64,000 nucleotides of DNA from Veronia nyctiphanis (GTDB lineage: Bacteria > Pseudomonadota > Gammaproteobacteria > Enterobacterales > Vibrionaceae): positions 1-64,000 of the forward strand of contig NZ_PEIB01000028.1 of the NCBI RefSeq assembly GCF_004116385.1, given 5' to 3'. Both the position numbers and the translations under genes were made by a program. The notes beneath the pieces are model-generated. The model was not told the DNA's origin and searched no databases. It saw only the letters and a list, made by a program, of their open reading frames with translations. Positions 15,377 to 52,318 of the stretch are shown here, piece after piece. The number at the start of each line of letters is the position of its first letter. The first letter of the stretch is position 1.

Positions 15377-16609
15377 TTAACGCAACAGCTGTAAATAAGA
15401 CTGCGAAATAGATTTTGCTTGCGAGAGCATCGACATTCCCGCATTTTGCAGCATGGATGATTTAGTGAATCTCACCGTCTCTTTACCAAAATCAGTGTCT
15501 TGAATTCGGCTATTCGCAGCGGCAATACTCTCATTGTTTTTACCCAGATTATTGAGGCTGTGCTCCAGCTTGCTGTGCATTGCACCAATTTCGGCTCTCT
15601 GTTCGTTAAGACGTTTCGCAGCAATGTCGACAACTGATACCGCAGCCAGTGCACCACTGACTGTTGATATGTCCACATTGTCAATGGTGAGCGTTTTCCT
15701 GTTTTCCGGCGGATAAAGCACATCTCCAGAAAAGGAATTTTCTATCCCTAGCTCTACCGCAAGGTTTGAATGAATCCAAGTATCGTCATAGTCACCGGGG
15801 CCCTCTTCATCGAGAATCCAATAGTCGTCAACGAACATCTGTAAAGTATTGTTATCGCCTACAGAAAAACGGTAGCTGTCATTATCAAAAGGTTGAGAAC
15901 TCCAAGTAATGTTGTGGTGACCGCCATTAAAGTGGGTCGCCATCTCCTGTAAGTCATCACCCGGATTCGCCGTTAATTGGAAGGAAGAAGCATTTCCGTC
16001 ATAGTCAATGGTCAAGTCTACCAATAGTCGGTTGTTGCCTTCCTGGACTGTCCAATCGCTGGGCATGCCATGTTTAGCGATAAATAAAGTCCCCCCCAAG
16101 CGTTCCTGATCAGGACGAATGCTTTGCAAGGTAAGTTGAAAGGCTTCACCGGATTCAGCGCCTACTTGAATTGATCGAGTGCCAAACTCACCATTGAGAA
16201 GCTTTTGACCACCAAAAGAGGTGGTTTCAGCAATTCGTGAAAGCTCATCTTGTAGCGCTGACACCTCCTGTTGTAATGCATCACGCTCTTTGGTTTCGTT
16301 ACTGCCATTGGCTGCCTGCAAGGCAAGATCCCTCATACGATGAAGAATATCGAGAGACTCTTCGATTGCACCGTCAGCAGTTTGAAGCATGGAAATGCCG
16401 TCGTTGATATTACGCATAGACACATCGTAACCACGACTTTGTGAAATGAGGCGATTGGAGATAAGAAGCCCTGCTGCATCGTCTCCGGCACGGTTAATCC
16501 GACTGCCAGATACAAGCCTGTCTGAAGAAGAAGTATGACTTTCATTGGCATAATTGATGTGCCGATAAAACATCATTCCTTGGTAATCATTAACAATATG
16601 TCCACCCAT
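15377..16609 (-). CDS. Flagellin-like protein, copy 1
   Basis: 410 residues with flagellin D0/D1 ends. The N-terminal part contains GDDAAGLLISNRLISQSRGY and NINDGISMLQTADGAIEE. The C-terminal part contains KLEHSLNNLGKNNESIAAAN, TDFGKETVRFTKSSMLQNAG and ends QLLR. The extreme N-terminus, MGGHIVNDYQGMM, is unlike the usual M-A-x-x-I-N-T-N start. The middle (about 165-320) is a variable region with a segment resembling the flagellin IN repeat (GDDLQEMATHFN, then NTLQMFVDDYW). It is exported through the flagellar type III apparatus and polymerises in the filament. An AGGAGCC ribosome site precedes it. It is tandem with copy 2, 98 bases apart, and their C-terminal DNA is almost identical. No terminator was found after it. 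Confidence 0.9.
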   Translation of the reverse strand: MGGHIVNDYQGMMFYRHINYANESHTSSSDRLVSGSRINRAGDDAAGLLISNRLISQSRGYDVSMRNINDGISMLQTADGAIEESLDILHRMRDLALQAANGSNETKERDALQQEVSALQDELSRIAETTSFGGQKLLNGEFGTRSIQVGAESGEAFQLTLQSIRPDQERLGGTLFIAKHGMPSDWTVQEGNNRLLVDLTIDYDGNASSFQLTANPGDDLQEMATHFNGGHHNITWSSQPFDNDSYRFSVGDNNTLQMFVDDYWILDEEGPGDYDDTWIHSNLAVELGIENSFSGDVLYPPENRKTLTIDNVDISTVSGALAAVSVVDIAAKRLNEQRAEIGAMHSKLEHSLNNLGKNNESIAAANSRIQDTDFGKETVRFTKSSMLQNAGMSMLSQAKSISQSYLQLLR

Positions 16610-16707
16610 TACATTGGCTCCTATTATAGGACAGTATCGTTTTCCGCTTTTTACCGCTGTTAGTCAGTTCCCTTGTCTAATTATCTGGAAAATATAGATT
16701 TCTTTGT

Positions 16708-17946
16708 TCAACGCAGTAACTGCAAATAAGACTGAGAAATAGATTTTGCCTGCGAGAGCATCGACATTCCCGCATTTTGAAGCATGGATGATTTGGTGAA
16801 TCTCACCGTCTCTTTACCAAAGTCAGTGTCCTGAATTCGGCTATTCGCAGCGGCAATACTCTCATTGTTTTTACCCAGATTATTGAGGCTGTGCTCCAGC
16901 TTGCTGTGCATTGCACCAATTTCTGAGCGCTGCTCATTGAGTCTTCTCGCGGCGACGTCAATAACAGATACAGCGGCTTGCGCCCCACTGATAGTGGTGA
17001 GGTCTATGTCGTCGACTGTGACATTTTTTCTATTATTAGGCGGGTTCAATGTGTCCCCATCTGTGTGGTTTTTTATTCCGAGGATATCAACCAGCGTCTG
17101 CGAGCCATCGTCACCATCATAAATCCAAGTGTCATCATTGTGTCCTATAGGAACATTATTGTTTCGCCACTCTTCACTGACGAATAATTGAAGGGTATTG
17201 TCATCGCCGACAGAAAAGCGAAAGGCGTCCTCAGAAAGTGAACCAGTTCCTTGGCCATTAAAACTGTTTAATCGGGTCGCTAATTCTTGAAGATCATCGC
17301 CTTCCTTTCCGTATAGCTCAAAATGTTCTGAAAGTTGAGAATCGTTTTCCAACCACAATCTGATGTAATTATTGCCATCGGGGACAACCCAATTATCCGG
17401 CATGCTGTTTTTTGCCACGAAGAGCGTACCACCAAACTCGTCCTGATCTGGTCGAATACTCCCTAGTGATAATTGCATAGCCTCGCCAGATTCAGCACCT
17501 ATTTGAATGGACCGAGTGCCGAATTCGCCGTTCAGTAGCTTTTGTCCACCAAAAGAGGTGGTCTCAGCGATGCGTGTTAGTTCATCTTGCAGGGCCACGA
17601 CTTCCTGTTGTAAAGCTTCGCGCTCTTTTGTCTCATTACTACCGTTAGCGGCTTGTAGGGCGAGGTCTCTCATACGGTGGAGTATCTCAACCGATTCTTC
17701 GATAGCGCCATCAGCAGTTTGAAGAATAGAGATGCCGTCGTTAATGTTACGCATAGATACGTCGTATCCACGGCTTTGTGATATTAATCGGTTAGATATC
17801 ATCAGGCCCGCCGCATCGTCTCCGGCACTATTAATCCGAATGCCCGATGCAAGCTTATTTGATGAAGAGGTATTAGTTTCATTGGCATGATTAATATGCC
17901 GATGAAACATCATTCCTTGATAATCATTAACAATATGTCCACCCAT
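16708..17946 (-). CDS. Flagellin-like protein, copy 2
   Basis: 412 residues. It has the same architecture as copy 1: the start is MGGHIVNDYQGMMFHRHINH, the D1 core contains INSAGDDAAGLMISNRLISQ and the last 70 residues are identical to copy 1. The variable centre differs (LWLENDSQLSEHFELYGKEG, then DDGSQTLVDILGIKNHTDGD), so the two filaments subunits would expose different surfaces. AAGGAG stands 8 bases before the ATG. The upstream 250 bases are very AT-rich and should contain the promoter; I could not fit a sigma-28 or sigma-54 box convincingly. No other flagellar genes are nearby. Confidence 0.9.
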   Translation of the reverse strand: MGGHIVNDYQGMMFHRHINHANETNTSSSNKLASGIRINSAGDDAAGLMISNRLISQSRGYDVSMRNINDGISILQTADGAIEESVEILHRMRDLALQAANGSNETKEREALQQEVVALQDELTRIAETTSFGGQKLLNGEFGTRSIQIGAESGEAMQLSLGSIRPDQDEFGGTLFVAKNSMPDNWVVPDGNNYIRLWLENDSQLSEHFELYGKEGDDLQELATRLNSFNGQGTGSLSEDAFRFSVGDDNTLQLFVSEEWRNNNVPIGHNDDTWIYDGDDGSQTLVDILGIKNHTDGDTLNPPNNRKNVTVDDIDLTTISGAQAAVSVIDVAARRLNEQRSEIGAMHSKLEHSLNNLGKNNESIAAANSRIQDTDFGKETVRFTKSSMLQNAGMSMLSQAKSISQSYLQLLR

Positions 17947-42185: not shown

Positions 42186-43310
42186 ATGTTTAAACGATCA
42201 ACAAAAATAATACTGGCTGCTTGGCTACTCATGCTTGGCGGCTGCACAGAACGTACAGAACTTAAAGATCTATGTGCCGATGAGGAAACTAAGCACATTT
42301 TCTTGCCCAATTACTACAACGCAGGCAAAGATGAAAAGGCTTATGAAGCGCTTTGGCAGTTTGATGATCCCATACAACCTTATATCAGACTCGACTTGTT
42401 ACCCTTTGTCCAAAGGGTACAGAAATTTGATCTTTCTGGCTTTCCTTCTGGTAGTAAGAGTGACTATAAAATCATAACTTACGATGAGTATGAGCAGCTT
42501 ATTCATTACATCAAAGTACCCAACAACCCACTTTTAGGAATATCCCCTAAAGGTACGGTAATTATGCTCCAGGGATGGTCGGGCAATTGGAATAAGTACC
42601 AAGGAAACTACCTAAATCCCATGGCAGAACACTTCAGACGCCTGGGTTATGAACTGCTGCTTGTTAATCTTCGAGGCCATGGTCTGAGTGAAGCAAGCAA
42701 GCCGTACACGGCCGCGAGTACTTATGGTGCTAATGATGTGTTAGATATTAATGCATTACTGGCTGATATTGGCGGTAGCCTTACAAAACCTCTTGTGGTC
42801 GCAGGCCATTCCTACGGCGCAAGTGCTGGTACGCTACTCGCAATCAAAAACCCAGATGTAAAAGCATCCATTAATTTCTCGGGTCTCTCCACTATTGATA
42901 ATGTTATACAGGCGGTGAGGGCAGTTGCACCAGATAAAGAAAAAGTAGACATGTGTACCAATCAATCCGGATTCCTTGACGCGCTGCTCTCAAGGGCTGA
43001 ATTGGATTACTTCTTTAAACGTGAGGATTCGAGCATTACTAACCTTGGCAGTGAAAGCCTTGATGTCCCCATTTTGCTCGTCGGTGGTACTAAAGATGAG
43101 AATGTTCCCATTGAAAACCTCCGTCAGATTGAAGATTCGAGACAGGGCTCTGATGTGGTGAGGACTGCTGTGTATGAGGATTGTGATCATTGGAGTTATT
43201 TTAATTTAAACAAGACCTATGAAATCGTCGCGTCCTTTATGTCAGCCGTGGTTGATGAGCAACCTATGCCTGAAAATGACGAAATCCTGTGTCCTGTTCT
43301 CATCCAATAA
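42186..43310 (+). CDS. Alpha/beta-hydrolase lipoprotein, copy B
   Basis: 374 residues. The lipobox is MLGGC near residue 19. The hydrolase core is VIMLQGWSGNWNKYQGNY, LLVNLRGHGLSEASKPYTAA, the serine elbow GHSYGASAGTLLAI, the acid in LVGGTKDENVPIENL and the histidine in YEDCDHWSYF. It is very similar to copy C over its whole length and less similar to copy A. It is probably a periplasm-facing lipolytic or esterase enzyme; the substrate is unknown. GGTAGGGAT is the ribosome site. Confidence 0.88.
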   Translation: MFKRSTKIILAAWLLMLGGCTERTELKDLCADEETKHIFLPNYYNAGKDEKAYEALWQFDDPIQPYIRLDLLPFVQRVQKFDLSGFPSGSKSDYKIITYDEYEQLIHYIKVPNNPLLGISPKGTVIMLQGWSGNWNKYQGNYLNPMAEHFRRLGYELLLVNLRGHGLSEASKPYTAASTYGANDVLDINALLADIGGSLTKPLVVAGHSYGASAGTLLAIKNPDVKASINFSGLSTIDNVIQAVRAVAPDKEKVDMCTNQSGFLDALLSRAELDYFFKREDSSITNLGSESLDVPILLVGGTKDENVPIENLRQIEDSRQGSDVVRTAVYEDCDHWSYFNLNKTYEIVASFMSAVVDEQPMPENDEILCPVLIQ

Positions 43311-43333
43311 TAGCGTAATGCGGGAGTAAAAAC

Positions 43334-43359
43334 TGCGGGTGATCGTTTCGGTCACTCGC
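43334..43359 (+). repeat. Hairpin shared by the hydrolase repeat units (2)
   Basis: TGCGGGTGA and TCACTCGCA pair with one mismatch. It follows copy B by 24 bases and matches the hairpins after copies A and C. Confidence 0.6.
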
Positions 43360-43374
43360 ATCCTCCGCAGTATA

Positions 43375-43614
43375 GTGTCATGCACATGAAGCCTATTTCC
43401 GTCACGAATCTATATATCAATTACTCATCAGATAAAATACGAAGCTTTTTTGAAACACAAATCGATTTAATTATTTATTACGATTTATCTAATTGAGTCC
43501 CCGCTTAAATATTCTTGATACTGACACAACGAACGCCCCCATATCTACCAACACTTAGTCTGTACTGACTGTTTAGAGTTATTACACTTTCATAATTATT
43601 AGAGAGGTAGGGAT
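43375..43614 (+). repeat. Duplicated upstream region of hydrolase copy C
   Basis: Homologous to 41946-42185. It holds the leader and ribosome site (GGTAGGGAT) of copy C. Differences are mostly substitutions and short indels, so the duplication is recent but not brand new. Confidence 0.8.
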
Positions 43615-44722
43615 ATGTTTAAAGGATCAAAAAAATATTAATGGCTGCTTTGCTATTAATGCTTGGCGGTTGTACACAACTATGTGTCGATGAGGGAATA
43701 AAACCCATTTTTTTACCCAATTACTTTAACACGGGAATGGATGACAAGGCTTATGAAGCGCTTTGGCAGAATGATGGTCCCGTTCAACCTTATATTAACT
43801 TAGGCTTGTTACCTTTTATCCAAAGGGCAGAAACATTCGAACTAGAGGGCTTTCCTTCAGGTAGTAAGAGTGGCTATAAAATCATAGGTCACGAGGGATA
43901 TGAGCAGCTCATTCATTACATCAAAGTACCCAACAACTCCCTTGCGCGAATCCTTCCTAAAGGAACAGTAATTATGCTCCAGGGGTGGTCGGGTAATTGG
44001 AATAAGTATCAAGGAAACTACCTAACTCCCATGGCAGAACACTTCAGACGCCTGGGTTATGAACTGCTGCTTATTAACCTTCGAGGCCATGGTCTGAGTG
44101 AAGCAAGTAGCCGTACACGGCCGCGAGTACATATGGTGCTAATGATGTGTTAGATATCAATTATTTACTCACTGATATTGGGGGTACCCTTATTAAACCT
44201 CTTGTGGTCGCAGGCCATTCCTACGGCGCAAGTGCTGGTTCGCTACTCGCAATCAAAAACCCGGATGTAAAAGCGTCCATCAATTTCTCGGGTCTCTCCT
44301 CTATTGATAATGTTATGCAGGCGGTGCGGGCTGTTGCGCCAGATAAAGACAGAGTAGATATGTGTACCAATCAACCCGGATTCCTTGATGCGCTGCTCTC
44401 AAGAGCTGAATCGGATTACTTCTTTAAACGCGAGGATTCGAGCATTACTAACCTTGGCAGTGAAGGCCTTGATGTTCCTATTTTGCTCGTCGGTGGCACT
44501 AAAGATGAGAATGTTCCCATTGAAAACCTCCGTCAGATTGAAGATTCAAGACAGGGCTCCGATGTTGTAAGAACCGCTGTGTATAAGGATTGTAATCATG
44601 GGAGTTACCTTCACTTAGACGAGACCTATAACATCGTCACATCCTTTATGTCAGCCGTGGTTGATGGGCAACCTATGCCTGAAAATGTCGAAACCCAGTG
44701 TCCTGCTCCCATCCTGTACTAA
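43615..44722 (+). pseudogene. Alpha/beta-hydrolase lipoprotein, copy C, frameshifted twice
   Basis: Restoring two bases gives 369 residues. The first loss is in the AAAAAAATATTAATG run at about 43632, between MFKGSKK and LMAALLLMLGGC; the second is at about 44108, where copy B reads GCAAGCAAGCCG and this copy GCAAGTAGCCG. The lipobox (MLGGC), LINLRGHGLSEAS, the serine elbow GHSYGASAGSLLAI, the acid TKDENVPIE and the histidine KDCNHGSYL are all intact. Because everything else is conserved, including a complete triad, the two one-base gaps may be sequence errors. If real, this copy is dead. Confidence 0.82.
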
Positions 44723-44742
44723 TGTCATGCGGGAGTGAAAAC

Positions 44743-44769
44743 TGCGAGTGATCGATTCGGTCACTCGCA
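44743..44769 (+). repeat. Hairpin shared by the hydrolase repeat units (3)
   Basis: TGCGAGTGA and TCACTCGCA form a perfect nine-base stem with a nine-base loop, 20 bases after copy C. It is the best member of the three hairpins and could stabilise the 3' end or act as a terminator without T-tract. Confidence 0.65.
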
Positions 44770-44817
44770 CCGTTACAAAGAATTGGCGAGTTTCGATTAC
44801 CCATCAGGAGAGAGCCA

Positions 44818-45123
44818 ATGACTATCAGTCTGAACCACCTCAACATGCAACTCAAAGTCGATAAACTGATTTTTCACTCACTTGACCTTTGCCTTTACCA
44901 AGCCTCTGCAGTTGTTGGCGGCAGCGAATTGATCGTAACAGATGATAAAGGAAAGCCACTTCGGGACCATAGCCTGCACGGCCTTCAGAAGCTGTTTAAA
45001 GCTGTTCGAACTGATTGCCACATGCTGCGTCAGCAGAGCGCTTACGATGAGATGGTTGGTCAGGCTCATGACTCATCAGATAACACGATGGAAATTCCTA
45101 TTTCGACTAACCCAATGGTTTGA
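44818..45123 (+). CDS. Small protein, DUF6482-like
   Basis: 101 residues after an AGGAGAG ribosome site. It contains DLCLYQASAVVGGSELIVTD and GKPLRDHSLHGLQKLFKAV, an arrangement that recalls DUF6482 proteins (short cytosolic proteins of unknown function common in vibrios and pseudomonads). There is no signal peptide. The family assignment is tentative. Confidence 0.6.
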   Translation: MTISLNHLNMQLKVDKLIFHSLDLCLYQASAVVGGSELIVTDDKGKPLRDHSLHGLQKLFKAVRTDCHMLRQQSAYDEMVGQAHDSSDNTMEIPISTNPMV

Positions 45124-45151
45124 CAGTGCCGAGTTATATAAGGTTTAGAAT

Positions 45152-45176
45152 AAAAAAGCAGCCCTAGAAGGGCTGC
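45152..45176 (-). terminator. Hairpin terminator facing the minus strand
   Basis: GCAGCCC-TAGAA-GGGCTGC with AAAAAA on its left side, so the T-tract exists only for minus-strand transcripts. No minus-strand gene lies close by, yet the position after the DUF6482-like gene suggests it may also stop plus-strand transcription. Confidence 0.6.
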
Positions 45177-45489
45177 AAAAGAAACTAGAGGTTAGGATTA
45201 TGAAATTTCTTATTTTCATAGTTAAGAATAGGTATCAAATTTAACACTTTCCACAATTTTTGTATGGGTATGATTTTTATCCCTTTTCATATTTCCTCAA
45301 TGCCAATCACGTAATCTGTAAGATCGCCATTTCTCTATCACACTTACAGAGCTAATTACCCTACAAAACTAAGCGTTTATTGAAGTGACTCTAAAGTTGT
45401 CGATACAGTCTCATCTTGTGCTAGTGCAGTTGAGTAAACTGTTCCACCTTTCTCGATAACGGTGATTAGGCCGACATATTGGTGAACCA
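45177..45489. other. Gene-free stretch before the HAD hydrolase
   Basis: About 310 bases, AT-rich, without coding frame, repeat or clear operator. It presumably holds the promoter of the HAD gene. Confidence 0.4.
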
Positions 45490-46161
45490 TTGAAAGCTGT
45501 TTTATTTGATCTCGATAACACGCTGACAGACAGGACAAAGTCGATTGCTAAGTATTCTGAAATCTTTCTTGAAGATTTTAGATGCCAACTGGTTGAGCCT
45601 GTTACATCCGCTTGGCTTGTCGACAAAATATTGACCGTTGATCAAGGTGGTTATGGCGGGCATGAGCACCGTTGCCATTTGCTGTCAGAATTACCTATCT
45701 GGAAAAAAACACCTACTCCCGAATCACTATTAGCGCATTGGTTTTCACACTTTCCTCATTGCCCTGTGGCAATGGAGGGGCTCTATGACATGCTTGAAGC
45801 GTTGAAACGAAAGGGTTTAAAGCTGGGTGTCATTACCAACGGTAAAGATCATGTGCAAAGGGCAAAAATCTCAGCACTGAATATTGAGTCATATTTTGAT
45901 TGTATTGTGACCTCTGGTGAAGTAGGAATTAAAAAACCTGCCGCTGAGATATTTCATCTAGCTGTCGGAAAACTGGGTTTAAACGCTGAAGAAGTTGTTT
46001 ACCTTGGCGACCACCCGATTAACGATTATTACGGTGCGTATCACGCTGGTTTGAAAGCGATCTGGTTAGAGGGTTATTTACCGTGGCCGAGCGGTGTTGT
46101 GCAAAGTTCGTCTACCATCAAAGGTCTATCTGAAATAGTTCCCTTAGTCTTTAAAAAATAA
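45490..46161 (+). CDS. HAD-superfamily hydrolase (phosphatase-like)
   Basis: 223 residues from a TTG start (weak ribosome site). Motif I is VLFDLDNTLTD, with the nucleophile and general acid aspartates. Motif II is VITNGKDH, motif III lysine is in GIKKPAAEIFHLAV and motif IV is YLGDHPINDYYGAYHAGLKA. The helical cap lies between motifs I and II. It belongs to the YjjG/2-haloacid-dehalogenase-like group that dephosphorylates small phosphometabolites. The substrate is unknown. Confidence 0.9.
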   Translation: MKAVLFDLDNTLTDRTKSIAKYSEIFLEDFRCQLVEPVTSAWLVDKILTVDQGGYGGHEHRCHLLSELPIWKKTPTPESLLAHWFSHFPHCPVAMEGLYDMLEALKRKGLKLGVITNGKDHVQRAKISALNIESYFDCIVTSGEVGIKKPAAEIFHLAVGKLGLNAEEVVYLGDHPINDYYGAYHAGLKAIWLEGYLPWPSGVVQSSSTIKGLSEIVPLVFKK

Positions 46162-46314
46162 ATATGAATCGTTACATTTTACGAGTCATTTCTGGTTTCT
46201 TAGGTTCGATTTTTCATTTTTTTTATATGTATCTGAGTTTAATTCCTATCTTTTCCCATCTAACGGAACTTTATGTAAAGTTGCCCACGAAAAATGTGTA
46301 TGGGTAGGTAAATA

Positions 46315-46866
46315 ATGAAAAAAGTCTTAATCTTAGCAGCAGTTGGTGGCGTTTTAGCTGGTTGTGCATCTCAATCCTTGGCTCCTGCGAGTGGAAAGGC
46401 GGCATTCGCCCTTCCTGTTGATATTAAAACAGTAAATGCTGACTTTGCATGCAGCAGAACATCGCTCTTTCTACAAAGTGTAAACTTTCCAGGTTTAGAC
46501 CCTATTGAAGTGAAGTTCCGTCCTAAAAAAGGCATGGAATATGCGCTGTTTGATAACATCAAACCAGGTAACTACGACATCGTAAAATCACGTTGTTACC
46601 CTGCAAGCGGCTGGAGTTTTACCACCCAAAATGGTGGTTCTAATTATCTAGATGCTGAGCAAGATATCCGCGTATCGCTTAAACCAAATAAGATCACAAT
46701 GGCTCGTACCGCATATGTCGGTTATACCAAAGCCAATGTTTATAGCACTGACGGCGGTACTGAATTTAACATTAAAATGATTGATGCTGAGCAAAGCTGG
46801 ACAGATAAAGCAATTGATGCGCTGAAGTCGGAGCAAGAACTCACGGGTTGGACCGTTGGGTACTAA
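46315..46866 (+). CDS. Lipoprotein of unknown function
   Basis: 183 residues. The signal peptide is MKKVLILAAVGGVLAGC, with a clear lipobox (LAGC). The mature part has two further cysteines (DFACSRTS and KSRCYPAS) that may pair, and a beta-rich pattern such as GNYDIVKSRCYPASGWSF and LKPNKITMARTAYVGYTKAN. I do not recognise the family. It stands alone, followed by a good terminator. Confidence 0.8.
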   Translation: MKKVLILAAVGGVLAGCASQSLAPASGKAAFALPVDIKTVNADFACSRTSLFLQSVNFPGLDPIEVKFRPKKGMEYALFDNIKPGNYDIVKSRCYPASGWSFTTQNGGSNYLDAEQDIRVSLKPNKITMARTAYVGYTKANVYSTDGGTEFNIKMIDAEQSWTDKAIDALKSEQELTGWTVGY

Positions 46867-46874
46867 AAACATTG

Positions 46875-46899
46875 ACGCCAACCTATAGGTTGGCGTTAT
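46875..46899 (+). terminator. Hairpin terminator after the lipoprotein gene
   Basis: ACGCCAACC-TATA-GGTTGGCGT is a perfect nine-base stem. Only TATT follows, so the T-tract is weak. Confidence 0.7.
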
Positions 46900-47029
46900 T
46901 CATTTCAAGTCTTACATCACCAATGCCTTATTCACCCTACCACTCTTCATCATTTAAACGTCCAGTTTCCTATTTCGTTGGGTTTAGTTCTTTCCTTTGT
47001 CATTAATTTGGATTAGTCAGAGCTGTTAT

Positions 47030-49307
47030 TTACTTCAACAATTGTAATGAATTCCATGGGATATTCTTCGCTTGCCCCAGCATAGACATCGTGGCATTTT
47101 GCAGCATCGCCATTTTGGTCATGCTCACCGTTTCTTTACCAATTTGGGTATCCAGTATTTTGCTGTTGGCACCCGCGATATTGAGTTTATTCATTTCCAA
47201 ACTGTTTAAGCTGTGGCCGATACGATTTTCCATCGCGGCGATGTCCGCCCGCTGTTCATCGAGCTGCTTAAAGGCTGAGTCAATAGCAGCAATGGCATTT
47301 TGCGCCCCGGTGCGGGTGGAGATATCAATGTCCTGCACCGTGGTTTCTTCGGCGGTCATTACAAGCCCCTGCTGGTCGTAATCGCCCATCAGGGTGGCAA
47401 GGTTACCGGCGACACGCAGGTCAGAGTAGGAGTCTTCGCCGCCTTTGGTTGTTTTGTCATAAGCCATAAAAGCTTGCAGGCGATAGTCATCAGTGACAGA
47501 CAGCTGCACGCCGCTGACATTGGGGGAGTCATAGTCACTGATAAGCTGGTTATTCATGCCTTCGACAACATCGTTGAGCGATGCGCCATGTGAAGCTTGG
47601 TAGGTTTCAGAATCGGTATTCAAGCGACTGAGTTTGATGTTATCAAGTACTGCACCACCTTCGTTGTCTGCGCTGGTATCGTCAAAGAGTACTCGGACTG
47701 AGGTCGTATTGGCATTTAATGAGATTTTTGTTGAGTAAGTGGTCCAATTTGACGAGTCGGTGTTTGGAAAAGACTGCCGAAAAAGATCGTTACCGTCCTG
47801 GTCTGTGATGATCGCGTCAAAATCAGAGTCGTACCCCTGACGCATGACATGGTCGAAGCTGAAATGGAGCTCTCTGTCTCCCTGAGCCATGAGATCACTG
47901 ACGTCAATATTTTGGGCAATGGTGTTGGCCTTAAAGGTTGCCAGCTCAACAGCGGTATTGGTTTGAGGGTTTGCGGGGCCAAAGTTAGATAATGCGCCTT
48001 GAAAGAGTTGTATTTGATCGCCTGATGTTTCAGCCCAACCGTCAACGTCTTGAGAGTTAACATAGGCATGAACATCTGAGCTGTCATCGCCCCACGCTTC
48101 AAAATCGCCATTCACCAGCAAGTTTTCGTCGTTGACGGGTACAAAGCGAAACTTGTCGACATTGATATCGCTTTGGAAGGTGAGTTTTACAGAGGGCTCA
48201 TCGGAAGAAATATCAAAGAGGCCGAGATCCTGAAGGTGAGTTTTACAGAGGGCTCATCGGAAGAAATATCAAAGAGGCCGATATCCTGATACTCATAATT
48301 GTGACGATTGCCTGTGTGCTGAAAGGTGGCGGTGGTCGTTGTTCCGTCAATATCGACGGTGACCTGTCCATCCCCCGTTCTCCCTCCTCTGAGTTCCAAC
48401 CGATATTGGCCTGCCGTTAAGCCTGTTTCAAACTCCAGCCATTCGCCATCATTAACCCAACCAACGACATGCTCACCGGCATTTGTCTCATTGGTATTGG
48501 TGTATTGAGGTGAGTAACTGTGAATATCAACACCGCTGTTTGGCCCGTCTCGGTAGCTATAGCCAAAATTTGAGCTTCCGTAATCTTCGGCCTCAGTATC
48601 AAAGTAATTATCATAATCTTCAGCTTCAATGGTCACAGCATAAGGCGTATTTACCGAATCATTCAGTGCAGAACCTGTCTCATTAGGTGCGTTGAATTTG
48701 GTGAGTACCAATTGGCTGTCATGAGTATTCGGGTAAGTATACGAAGGCACTGTCCACCCCGCCGACATCGCCTGCGTGGCGGTAAAGGTGGTGCCAGTTC
48801 TGACCGCATCGGCCCGCACGCTGCCAAGGTTGAGTTTCATTGCTTCACCGGAATCGGCTCCCATTTGAATGGGGGTACTGCCATTGAGCCATTTAACAGT
48901 TTCTTACCACCAAAACTGGTGGTATCAGCAATACGGTTCAGTTCATCTTTGAGGGCCGAGACTTCTTCTTGCAGCGCGGTGCGCTCTTGTTTGCCCATTG
49001 ATGCGTTGGCAGACTGCAACGCCATTTCGCGCATGCGGTGCAAAATGGTGTTGGTTTCTTCCATTGCCGCATCAGCGGTTTGCAGCAGTGACAGGCCGTC
49101 GTTGAGATTTCGAATAGAGGTGTCATAGCCACGGGCTTGCGAAGTCAGGCGAGTAGAAATATGCAGCCCAGCCGCATCGTCTTTGGCACTTTGAATGCGG
49201 GTGCCAGACGCGAGCCTGTCCATCGTCTCATTCTGAACACGGTTGGTCCGGTCCAGATGGCGATGCGCCATGCCCCCCTGAAAATCATTAACGATATGTC
49301 CGCCCAT
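47030..49307 (-). pseudogene. Large flagellin with CBM6-like and second jelly-roll-like insert, frame-broken
   Basis: Ignoring a 56-bp duplication and restoring one base gives 740 residues. The N-terminal flagellin part (1-150) has MGGHIVNDFQGGMAHRHLDR and AKDDAAGLHISTRLTSQARG; the C-terminal part (about 610-740) has GHSLNSLEMNKLNIAGANSK and ends QLLK. Between them lies a CBM6-type module (about 48150-48645; IEAEDYDNYFD, then VVGWVNDGEWLEFETGL) and a second domain (about 47625-48125; LLVNGDFEAWGDD, then SDFDAIITDQDGNDLFR) like CBM4/9 or DUF642 jelly rolls. A one-base loss is at the GGGGG run near 48871; the duplication is at 48177-48288. A filament displaying sugar-binding domains is inferred. 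Confidence 0.8.
48177..48288 (-). repeat. 56-bp tandem direct duplication inside the flagellin gene
   Basis: The unit starting AAGGTGAGTTTTACAGAGGG at 48177 recurs at 48233 with one difference near its end (GAGATCC versus GATATCC). 56 is not a multiple of three, so the second unit throws translation out of frame and gives the stop at 48187. Removing one unit joins EPSVKLTF directly to the frame with INVDKFRFVPVNDEN. Confidence 0.9.
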
Positions 49308-49580
49308 GATGCTCCCAGATGTATTAATTCCGTGAGCGCAACTGATATTAATATTCTTATTATTTTATTTTTAACGTGCTTATTTCCATTATCTTTTAGG
49401 GTTTTTTATTCCTTTTTATATGGGATGTAATTCTGTTATTTTGTGTTTAGCAATATTTATTTATCTAATTTATAATTATCCTTCTTTGGTTTTGTTACTG
49501 GATATGTTGTTAATTTTACGAGTAACGAAAGCCTGTACCCTTCATTGGATCTTTATTCCAGCCTATTTCTGAGAGCTATT

Positions 49581-50099
49581 ATGGTTGTAAATGATGACGC
49601 TCATCAGCGTATTAATATAAGAGAAGCAAGAGAATCTGATTTAAAGCCAATCAATCGCCTTTACCGACAAATTAATGTCCAGCACTATCAAGGCGCGCCA
49701 GAGGTTTTTGCTCAGTTACCTGACGAACAGCATCAGGAAATGGGTGAGTTGCATCGGCAGATTTGCGATGCGGAGTGCCACTTTGCTGTTGCTGAGTTTG
49801 GCGGCAATATTATTGGGTACGTTACGGCAAGAATAAAAGAGGCGCCCAAGGTATCTTTCTTACGTGATCACTTGATTTGCCGCGTAGATACGATTGTGGT
49901 TTCTGAATCAGCGCAAGGGCTGGGAGTTGGCTCTTCGCTCATGGCGAATGTCAAGGCATGGGCGCTTTACCAAGGAGCAACTGAACTTCGACTCGAAGTC
50001 ATGGAGTTTAATCAAGGTGCCATCGAGTTTTATCACGCTCAAGGGATGGAAACCCAATCGCGGATAATGTCGATGAGTTTGGATGACTCAGACATTTAG
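49581..50099 (+). CDS. GNAT-family N-acetyltransferase
   Basis: 172 residues from ATG 49581 (GAGAG upstream); the frame is open from 49545. GNAT marks are INIREARESDLKPINRLYRQ, the acetyl-CoA loop VVSESAQGLGVGSSLMANVK and the C-terminal LEVMEFNQGAIEFYHAQGM. The N-terminal portion has YQGAPEVFAQLPDE, as in many uncharacterised members. The substrate is unknown. It is convergent with lhgO, 12 bases apart, with no visible terminator between them. Confidence 0.85.
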   Translation: MVVNDDAHQRINIREARESDLKPINRLYRQINVQHYQGAPEVFAQLPDEQHQEMGELHRQICDAECHFAVAEFGGNIIGYVTARIKEAPKVSFLRDHLICRVDTIVVSESAQGLGVGSSLMANVKAWALYQGATELRLEVMEFNQGAIEFYHAQGMETQSRIMSMSLDDSDI

Positions 50100-50111
50100 A
50101 TCATTTCCAAC

Positions 50112-51302
50112 TTATATGCTGATTTTATCGACGATATATTCCGCAATTGGAAAACAGGATGTAGCCGCTGGTGACGGCGCATTACACACCATTAAGCATC
50201 GCTTGGTGGTATGAAAGTGAAAATCATCGATCAGTTTTCCGTCTTTTGATACCGCTTGTGCCCTTATCCCTGAGGGGTAGTTACCTAAATCTTTGATGGT
50301 TAATGATGGGCAGTATTTTTGAACGTGTTTGAGGTAACCGCGTTTCCAGAATGTATTTTTTAGCTCATGTGCTGCTGAGCTGCGATGGTGCCAAACCAGT
50401 TTTCTGAAGCCCGGATAGCCCAACATATCGAGGCTGTCTTTAGCGTTGAAATCTGTTTTTTCGTAGCCTTGTCTTGAAAAGCTTACCACTGCATTCGGGC
50501 CAACAGTTACTGAGCCGTCGATCATCCGTGTCAGATGTATGCCAAGAAACGGCAGATTGGGATCGGGGATCGGGTAGATAAGATGTTTAATGATCTGGTT
50601 ATGCTCAGAGGGGAGTTGGTAATAATCGCCCCTAAAGGGAATGATACGGAAGTCTGGCTCCTGACCTAATAGCTTCACAAGCCTGTCAGACATAACGCCC
50701 CCACAGGCAATCAACTGATGAGCATGGAAGGTGTTTTCATGAGTGATGGCCGTTACGCCAGATTCTGTCTCATTGAGGTAGCTAACGTCTTCCTCATAGA
50801 GAACGTCCCCGCCCTGTTGTTGAATGATTTCAGCTAAACGCTGACAAATCTGTCGATAGTTGACGATGCCTGTAGAAGGGACAAAAATCGCGCCTTCACC
50901 TGAAATATTGGGTTCCCTTTTCGATAAAGCTAATTTATCGAGCACATCGATTTCAATACCATTTTCGTTTGCGCGCTTAATCAGCCCTTGCATTCGCTCC
51001 AACTCAGCGTCATTTGTCGCAACCAGCAACTTGCCACATTCTTCAAACGGAATGTCATGCTCTCTACAAAATGCCTTAATTGCTCTGTTGCCTCGTTTGC
51101 AGAACTTTGCTTTCAAGCTTCCTGGTGTGTAGTAAACACCAGCATGAATGACACCACTGTTTCGGCCAGTTTGATGCAGAGCAGGAGAGGCTTCTTTCTC
51201 TAAAACGATAACTTTCGAGTCAGGGTACTTTTTCTGCAATTCATACGCAGTACTCAGTCCGATAATGCCTGCACCAATTACTAAAAAGTCACATTGTCTC
51301 AT
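50112..51302 (-). CDS. lhgO: L-2-hydroxyglutarate oxidase
   Basis: 396 residues from ATG 51300-51302 (GGAAC upstream). The FAD-binding motif is FLVIGAGIIGLSTAYELQKK. Family marks are HQTGRNSGVIHAGVYY and PFRGDYYQLP, and the C-terminal NYPSGIRAQAVSKDGKLIDD. The enzyme oxidises L-2-hydroxyglutarate to 2-oxoglutarate and passes electrons to the membrane quinone pool. No csiD or gabDTP genes are adjacent, so it is not in the usual glutarate operon. It is divergent from psuG, with a shared promoter region of about 107 bases. Confidence 0.92.
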   Translation of the reverse strand: MRQCDFLVIGAGIIGLSTAYELQKKYPDSKVIVLEKEASPALHQTGRNSGVIHAGVYYTPGSLKAKFCKRGNRAIKAFCREHDIPFEECGKLLVATNDAELERMQGLIKRANENGIEIDVLDKLALSKREPNISGEGAIFVPSTGIVNYRQICQRLAEIIQQQGGDVLYEEDVSYLNETESGVTAITHENTFHAHQLIACGGVMSDRLVKLLGQEPDFRIIPFRGDYYQLPSEHNQIIKHLIYPIPDPNLPFLGIHLTRMIDGSVTVGPNAVVSFSRQGYEKTDFNAKDSLDMLGYPGFRKLVWHHRSSAAHELKNTFWKRGYLKHVQKYCPSLTIKDLGNYPSGIRAQAVSKDGKLIDDFHFHTTKRCLMVCNAPSPAATSCFPIAEYIVDKISI

Positions 51303-51409
51303 TGGGGTTCCGTTCTGTTGTATTGCGTAAAAGCTTGAACCAGCGCTGGAAAAAGGGAGCGATCTTGATGCTACCATGCACAGAGGCGCTTACCAAGGAG
51401 GCGACGTCT

Positions 51410-52318
51410 ATGGCTCATACCATGCTCGATATTAGTGATGAAGTATCAAAAGCCCTTGCTCAAAATAAACCTGTGGTGGCGTTGGAGTCGACCATAATTT
51501 CCCACGGAATGCCGTATCCCAAAAATGTCGAAACAGCACTGAGTGTTGAAAAAGTGGTGAGAGAAAATGGCGCAACACCTGCCACTATCGCGATTATTGA
51601 TGGGCGGTTGAAAGCAGGGCTTTCAAAACAAGACATTGAGGTATTAGGTAAAGCGGGCAGGTCGGTGACTAAAGTCAGTCGTCGTGACATGCCTTTCGTA
51701 GTGGCAGCAGGGCAACATGGGGCTACGACTGTCGCTGCGACGATGATTATCGCTCAAATGGCGGGTATAAAGATATTCGCCACAGGTGGAATTGGCGGTG
51801 TTCACCGAGGTGCGGATAAGACATTTGATATATCAGCTGATCTCCAAGAGTTAGCGAAAACCAATGTTGCAGTGGTATGTGCAGGGATTAAATCTATTCT
51901 TGACCTAGGCCTGACCCTCGAATATCTGGAAACGCATGGCGTGCCTGTTATCGGCTATCAGAGTAAAACTTTGCCCGGTTTCTATGCGCGGACAAGTGCG
52001 TTTTCACTCGAGTACAGCTTTGAGTCGGCAGACGATATTGCAAAGGCTTTGGTAACGAAATGGCAACTCGGTTTACAAGGTGGTGCAGTGATAGCGAACC
52101 CAATACCTGACGAGTTTGCTATGGATAGTCAGGTTATTGAAGGCGTGATTTCAGAGGCGCTAAAAGATGCCGAACAAAAAGGGATTACAGGAAAAGCATC
52201 GACGCCCTTTCTCCTACAGAGAATATGTGAACTTACGGGTGGGGAAAGCTTGGATTCGAATATTGAACTGGTGCTCAACAATGCGCGGTTAGCGGCTCAA
52301 ATAGCAGTGCGTATGTGA
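51410..52318 (+). CDS. psuG: Pseudouridine-5'-phosphate glycosidase
   Basis: 302 residues from ATG 51410, which has AAGGAGG eight bases upstream; the frame is open from 51302. Characteristic stretches are VALESTIISHGMPYPKNVET, VSRRDMPFVVAAGQHGATTV (including conserved lysine and aspartate positions), FATGGIGGVHRGADKTFDIS and AVVCAGIKSILDLGLTLEYL (catalytic lysine). It splits pseudouridine-5'-phosphate into uracil and ribose-5-phosphate. The usual partner kinase psuK is not next to it. A terminator follows. Confidence 0.93.
   Translation: MAHTMLDISDEVSKALAQNKPVVALESTIISHGMPYPKNVETALSVEKVVRENGATPATIAIIDGRLKAGLSKQDIEVLGKAGRSVTKVSRRDMPFVVAAGQHGATTVAATMIIAQMAGIKIFATGGIGGVHRGADKTFDISADLQELAKTNVAVVCAGIKSILDLGLTLEYLETHGVPVIGYQSKTLPGFYARTSAFSLEYSFESADDIAKALVTKWQLGLQGGAVIANPIPDEFAMDSQVIEGVISEALKDAEQKGITGKASTPFLLQRICELTGGESLDSNIELVLNNARLAAQIAVRM

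Follow-up and report, generated by a model that had tools for sequence, protein, structure and literature searches.

A broken flagellin gene of Veronia nyctiphanis with two carbohydrate-binding-type modules in its D2 region

The DNA analyzed here, referred to as the window, is a stretch of 64,000 nucleotides from Veronia nyctiphanis (contig NZ_PEIB01000028.1, positions 1 to 64,000). In a Pfam search of its open reading frames, a flagellin gene was identified on the minus strand at 49307-47030, with Flagellin_N and Flagellin_C ends and two modules between them. The gene is split over three different reading frames: P0001 (48837-49307, minus strand) contains Flagellin_N (PF00669, 2.4e-37, 128.5 bits, cut-off 26.6), P0002 (48187-48864, minus strand) contains a match to CBM_35_2 and CBM_6, and P0003 (47030-48121, minus strand) contains the NGDFE module and Flagellin_C (PF00700, 1.2e-12, 48.4 bits, cut-off 23). 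Both end matches are well beyond chance and confirm the flagellin ends that an earlier sequence-only reading had placed here. The protein of 740 residues assumed in the same reading does not exist as an open reading frame in the window. A single open frame is found in the V. pacifica orthologue and not in the window, where the locus is a broken flagellin gene.

The N-terminal D0/D1 region (48882-49307, minus strand; PF00669) starts with MGGHIVNDFQG, a subgroup start common to this gene and two other flagellins of the window. The first part of D2 lies in the second reading frame (48637-48864, minus strand), as seen from the alignment with V. pacifica, and residues ~1-41 of P0002 match Vibrionaceae flagellins. 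Next come the CBM6/CBM35-type module (48140-48636, minus strand; PF18099), whose last strand is located beyond the second frame break, and the NGDFE module (47621-48127, minus strand), which is similar to DUF642, choice-of-anchor C and CBM4_9; the boundaries of both modules were set by reading. The third frame is completed by the second part of D2 and the C-terminal D1/D0 region (47033-47605, minus strand), again from the V. pacifica alignment, with PF00700 at ~47036-47293.

The first frame shift is located within 48864-48903 (minus strand), where the Flagellin_N region ends. A visual comparison with the V. pacifica orthologue suggests a shift of one base. An 8-bp duplication was also considered for this break and dropped, because the comparison with V. 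pacifica fits a single-base shift better. The second break is a 56-bp tandem duplication at 48176-48289 (period 56, 57 of 58 positions equal), which shifts the frame close to the end of the CBM module. It was the sole tandem duplication detected when the 64-kb window was scanned for periods of 6-300, and it is unlike the single shifts that are common to both draft assemblies.

In V. pacifica CAIM 1920 (NZ_LYBM01000001), a flagellin gene is found at the same place, intact and in one frame of 585 aa, and its surroundings show the same gene order as the window (the neighbors psuG, LhgO, HAD and lipase were named by reading). Over 45490-49307 of the window, the HAD-like gene and the flagellin diverge from V. 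pacifica more than LhgO does, with dS of 2.7 for the HAD-like gene, not estimable for the flagellin, and 0.83 for LhgO. Two lipoprotein-like alpha/beta hydrolase genes in tandem, recognized by reading, can also be observed at 42186-44722, the second being split in two frames.

The N-terminal D0/D1 region is 82% identical between the two orthologues. Residues 1-190 of the V. pacifica protein align with residues 1-192 of a sibling flagellin in the window (16711-17946), and the alignment resumes from ~405 with residues 215-412 of the same sibling; with the second sibling (15377-16609), the left flank fits too, and the right-hand match begins only at residue 272. Since sibling flanks align on either side of it, the insert occupies one D2 loop. 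The earlier reading had proposed a check for orthologues with the same insert, and V. pacifica provides one in part: the insert is at the same place, but the NGDFE module is absent and the first module is degenerate. The GW.NDGEWLEF motif has been changed there by substitutions and an insertion, and a Pfam search of the V. pacifica flagellin up to E 1 detected no CBM family. A full-length model of this protein was poor (mean pLDDT 46.1, pTM 0.28); its PDB matches, flagellins first and then CBM35, CBM6 and CBM61 chains, are only suggestive.

P0002 matches CBM_35_2 (PF18099) at 3.6e-6 and 27.5 bits, above the cut-off of 23 and well beyond chance, and CBM_6 (PF03422) at 6.3e-5 and 23.7 bits, under the cut-off of 28.9. 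Because the CBM_6 score is under its cut-off, the module is filed under CBM_35_2 and regarded as a relative of CBM_6. Against the PDB, P0002 alone detected the CBM6-bearing chain 5la2_A at 3.7e-4. A profile of five CBM sequences reached PDB CBM6 chains at 3.4e-22, a value partly owed to its non-flagellin rows, since three of the five are such (an adhesin encoded on contig C62 of the same genome and two proteins of other genera). The CBM6 pattern recognized in the sequence-only reading is upheld by the CBM_35_2 match and the solved CBM6 chain, and of the Pfam profiles that the two modules match, CBM_35_2 passes its cut-off while CBM_6 and DUF642 do not. The window module retains the core GWVNDGEWLEF. 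When it is aligned with CmCBM6 (1uxz), whose ligand-cleft aromatics we take to be Tyr33 and Trp92, an aromatic residue (Trp) is retained at the presumed Tyr33 position and an Arg is found at the presumed Trp92 position.

The second module matches choice_anch_C at 2.6e-5, under cut-off, and, searched alone, DUF642 weakly at 2.8e-4 and 21.1 bits; as the DUF642 cut-off is 27, it is related to this family without being a member. In an alignment of ten NGDFE sequences, DUF642 was matched by nine, CBM_6 by five and CBM_4_9 by three, the best DUF642 match being 1.2e-10. The proposed kinship of the NGDFE...W domain with DUF642 and CBM4/9 is supported by its relatives, although the module itself misses the DUF642 cut-off. 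The ten-member profile found nothing better than E 0.48 among solved structures. A model from the single sequence is almost wholly beta (pLDDT 58.1, residues 1-70 unreliable), and the module is probably a beta sandwich. The closest structural neighbor of the model is the porphyran-binding module 8xmz_A (VIA Z 10.4, rmsd 1.9, 101 aligned). The neighbors of model residues 60-174 also include CBM16 and CBM22, and GOLD domains and jelly rolls of toxins score within ~1 Z unit of the best.

Relatives of both modules were found elsewhere in the V. nyctiphanis genome, at C62:26548-26958 for the CBM (41-42% identity) and C62:12613-13125 for the NGDFE module (37% identity). Both are located among minus-strand adhesin-like frames extending from ~34.4 to 7.2 kb (C62 about 7242-34439), two of which contain LapA, CBM_35_2, cadherin-like and Big domains. 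At 1e-3, Pfam detected no family in the frame holding the NGDFE relative. These frames are read as one giant LapA-like adhesin gene that is broken into many frames in the assembly. Its V. pacifica counterpart, on C78, has an open frame of 2,883 residues with an NGDFE relative, for which Pfam gave BNR only, under cut-off. In a further genus of Vibrionaceae, four genomes have NGDFE relatives in long frames, so this module is not confined to the C62 adhesin. Relatives of both modules within one LapA-like locus suggest that the flagellin took up adhesin-type modules, and transfer would presumably have run from adhesin to flagellin. The two gene products share these modules but differ in kind, the adhesin being a very long repeat protein and the window gene encoding a filament subunit.

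The N-terminal part of the gene has matches in 304 of 329 genomes of the family at 1e-30, and the CBM part in five, with flagellin matches of the latter confined to the two Veronia genomes. Among the N-terminal matches listed, Veronia alone aligns from residue 1 (MGGHI or MGGNI), and among the matches listed, open frames outside Veronia reach at most 446 aa, compared with 619 for the frame of the V. pacifica orthologue. In drawn samples, P0002 matched 7 of 394 genomes of the order (E 1e-8) and 4 of 369 genomes of the class (E 1e-6), its own genome included in each count; the matches outside its own genome cover the CBM part only, and this search would miss a remote flagellin bearing another kind of CBM. 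A home-made flagellin profile, which recovered both controls (each the V. pacifica gene), detected no flagellin at the 17 CBM-matching loci of the family, order and class searches. Window positions 44000-52000 had no match among plasmids, and no relatives were found in viral contigs. The two tandem flagellins of the MGGHI subgroup at 15377-17946 have no CBM match in Pfam; among the matches listed, they are the closest to the N-terminal part of the CBM flagellin after that of V. pacifica.

Each Veronia genome contains a single FlhA above the NCBIfam cut-off, so the subunit probably belongs to the polar filament. Unsheathed lateral flagella were considered as the carrier and rejected, because the second FHIPEP locus of both genomes encodes the type III secretion protein SctV, above the NCBIfam cut-off; the V. 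nyctiphanis neighbors SctR and SctJ likewise pass theirs. This secretion cluster, with SctV, SctR and SctJ, occupies about 51190-71937 of contig C45, and SctV is also present in V. pacifica. Vibrio species sheathe their polar filaments. For the polar filament of V. alginolyticus, a sheath is described, with D2 turned to the inner leaflet (PMC13106801). The best sigma-28 and sigma-54 sites upstream of the gene did not outscore shuffled sequences (p 0.845 and 0.95), and those of V. pacifica gave p 0.205 and 0.955. An element TAAAG-N14-CACGTTAA is located upstream in V. pacifica and recurs in nearly identical form in the window; by itself it does not reach significance. The idea that a filament would display thousands of modules is not supported here, as the gene is broken in the assembly and the hypothetical subunit would be one among several flagellins of this genome.

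The reading we favor, at a probability of roughly 0.45, is that the gene encodes an accessory flagellin, belonging to a Veronia subgroup, with adhesin-type modules in a D2 loop, putatively a minor component of the polar filament that tethers to sugar. One outer D2 loop would have gained a CBM6/CBM35-type module and, in V. nyctiphanis, the NGDFE jelly-roll module as well, giant LapA-like adhesins being the likely source. If expressed, the subunit would enter the polar filament by way of its usual D0/D1 ends, make up a minor share of it and expose two modules of glycan-binding type on the outside, where they may tether the cell to polysaccharide. Judging from family kinship, the modules may bind sugar. 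In that case, the flagellum would serve both for swimming and as a lectin array whose modules are shared with a giant adhesin, and swimming and attachment would be directly linked. D2 may be regarded as a natural insertion site that tolerates foreign folded domains.

Modules from sugar-binding families may also have become a structural, D3-like extension that thickens or cloaks the filament, with effects on mechanics, phage or antigen variation and no binding at all. We consider this somewhat unlikely. It would explain the V. pacifica protein, which has neither the CBM motif nor a Pfam CBM match, and the replacement of the presumed key Trp in the window module. Giant flagellins with inserts of no assigned function are reported to thicken filaments (PMC6248924). 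The window module nevertheless keeps GWVNDGEWLEF and passes the CBM_35_2 cut-off, and its stretch shows a dN/dS of 0.24 against V. pacifica, a rough value at dS 2.6 (0.05 for the sibling flagellin); for the other three gene parts the dS estimate failed and was taken as saturated, giving no ratio. Two different modules of binding type placed side by side also speak against a purely structural role.

An unlikely explanation in our view is that the locus is a pseudogene, dead in this strain, with its modules idle there. Two frame shifts, the second being the only tandem duplication found in the window, are consistent with inactivation, and breaks also affect other flagellin genes of this genome, one on C34 and one on C51. 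Frame shifts are common in both draft assemblies: among V. pacifica ORFs with a match, 5 of 33 are broken in the window, the CBM flagellin included, and the reverse comparison gives 4 of 39, including one paralogue artefact. Single shifts may therefore well be draft errors. Moreover, the frames are open apart from the two breaks, and the N-terminal part, with dS taken as saturated, has a dN of 0.12 against V. pacifica. Slightly less likely still, finally, is an elaboration of the accessory-subunit reading into a flagellar lectin, in which the minority flagellin, with its two glycan-binding modules, and the cell's own adhesin would recognize the same surface and the 56-bp duplication might switch the gene off reversibly.

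In glycoside hydrolases, CBM6 and CBM35 modules are part of an enzyme. The first module of the window is kin to them by the CBM_35_2 match above cut-off and the profile match to CBM6 chains, but here it is carried by a flagellin and has lost one presumed cleft residue. With the polar flagellins of Vibrionaceae (NF006466, NF006468), the window gene shares D0/D1 and the D2 flanks, its N-terminal part scoring up to 188.8 bits, under the whole-protein cut-offs. The variable regions of flagellins are known to hold 61 domain types (Eckhard 2017, PMC5595980). The "possibly undescribed class" suggested for this gene was therefore too strong a term: flagellins with inserted functional domains are already known, and a CBM-type insert is a further variant. 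Sialidase and vWFA are included in the ten most frequent inserted types given in that paper's available text, and CBM is absent from these ten (PMC5595980). The flagellin papers listed, mostly as represented by their titles and the beginnings of their abstracts, name no natural CBM-bearing flagellin.

In flagellinolysin, too, the variable region between the flagellin ends houses a functional domain of foreign origin (PMC5595980, PMC7643111), but this insert is a catalytic metallopeptidase, whereas the Veronia inserts are of binding type. The NCBIfam flagellinolysin model covers only residues 112-169 of the V. pacifica protein (35.1 bits, cut-off 205), and the Pfam tables contain no peptidase family for the window parts or for this protein. 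Engineered mini-flagellin chimeras with a lectin have been made (PMC11339370). A polysaccharide-binding flagellin is represented by the alginate-binding p5 of Sphingomonas sp. A1, for which the available text of PMC8286568 mentions no inserted CBM. According to the same source, FliC of E. coli also binds alginate in vitro (PMC8286568).
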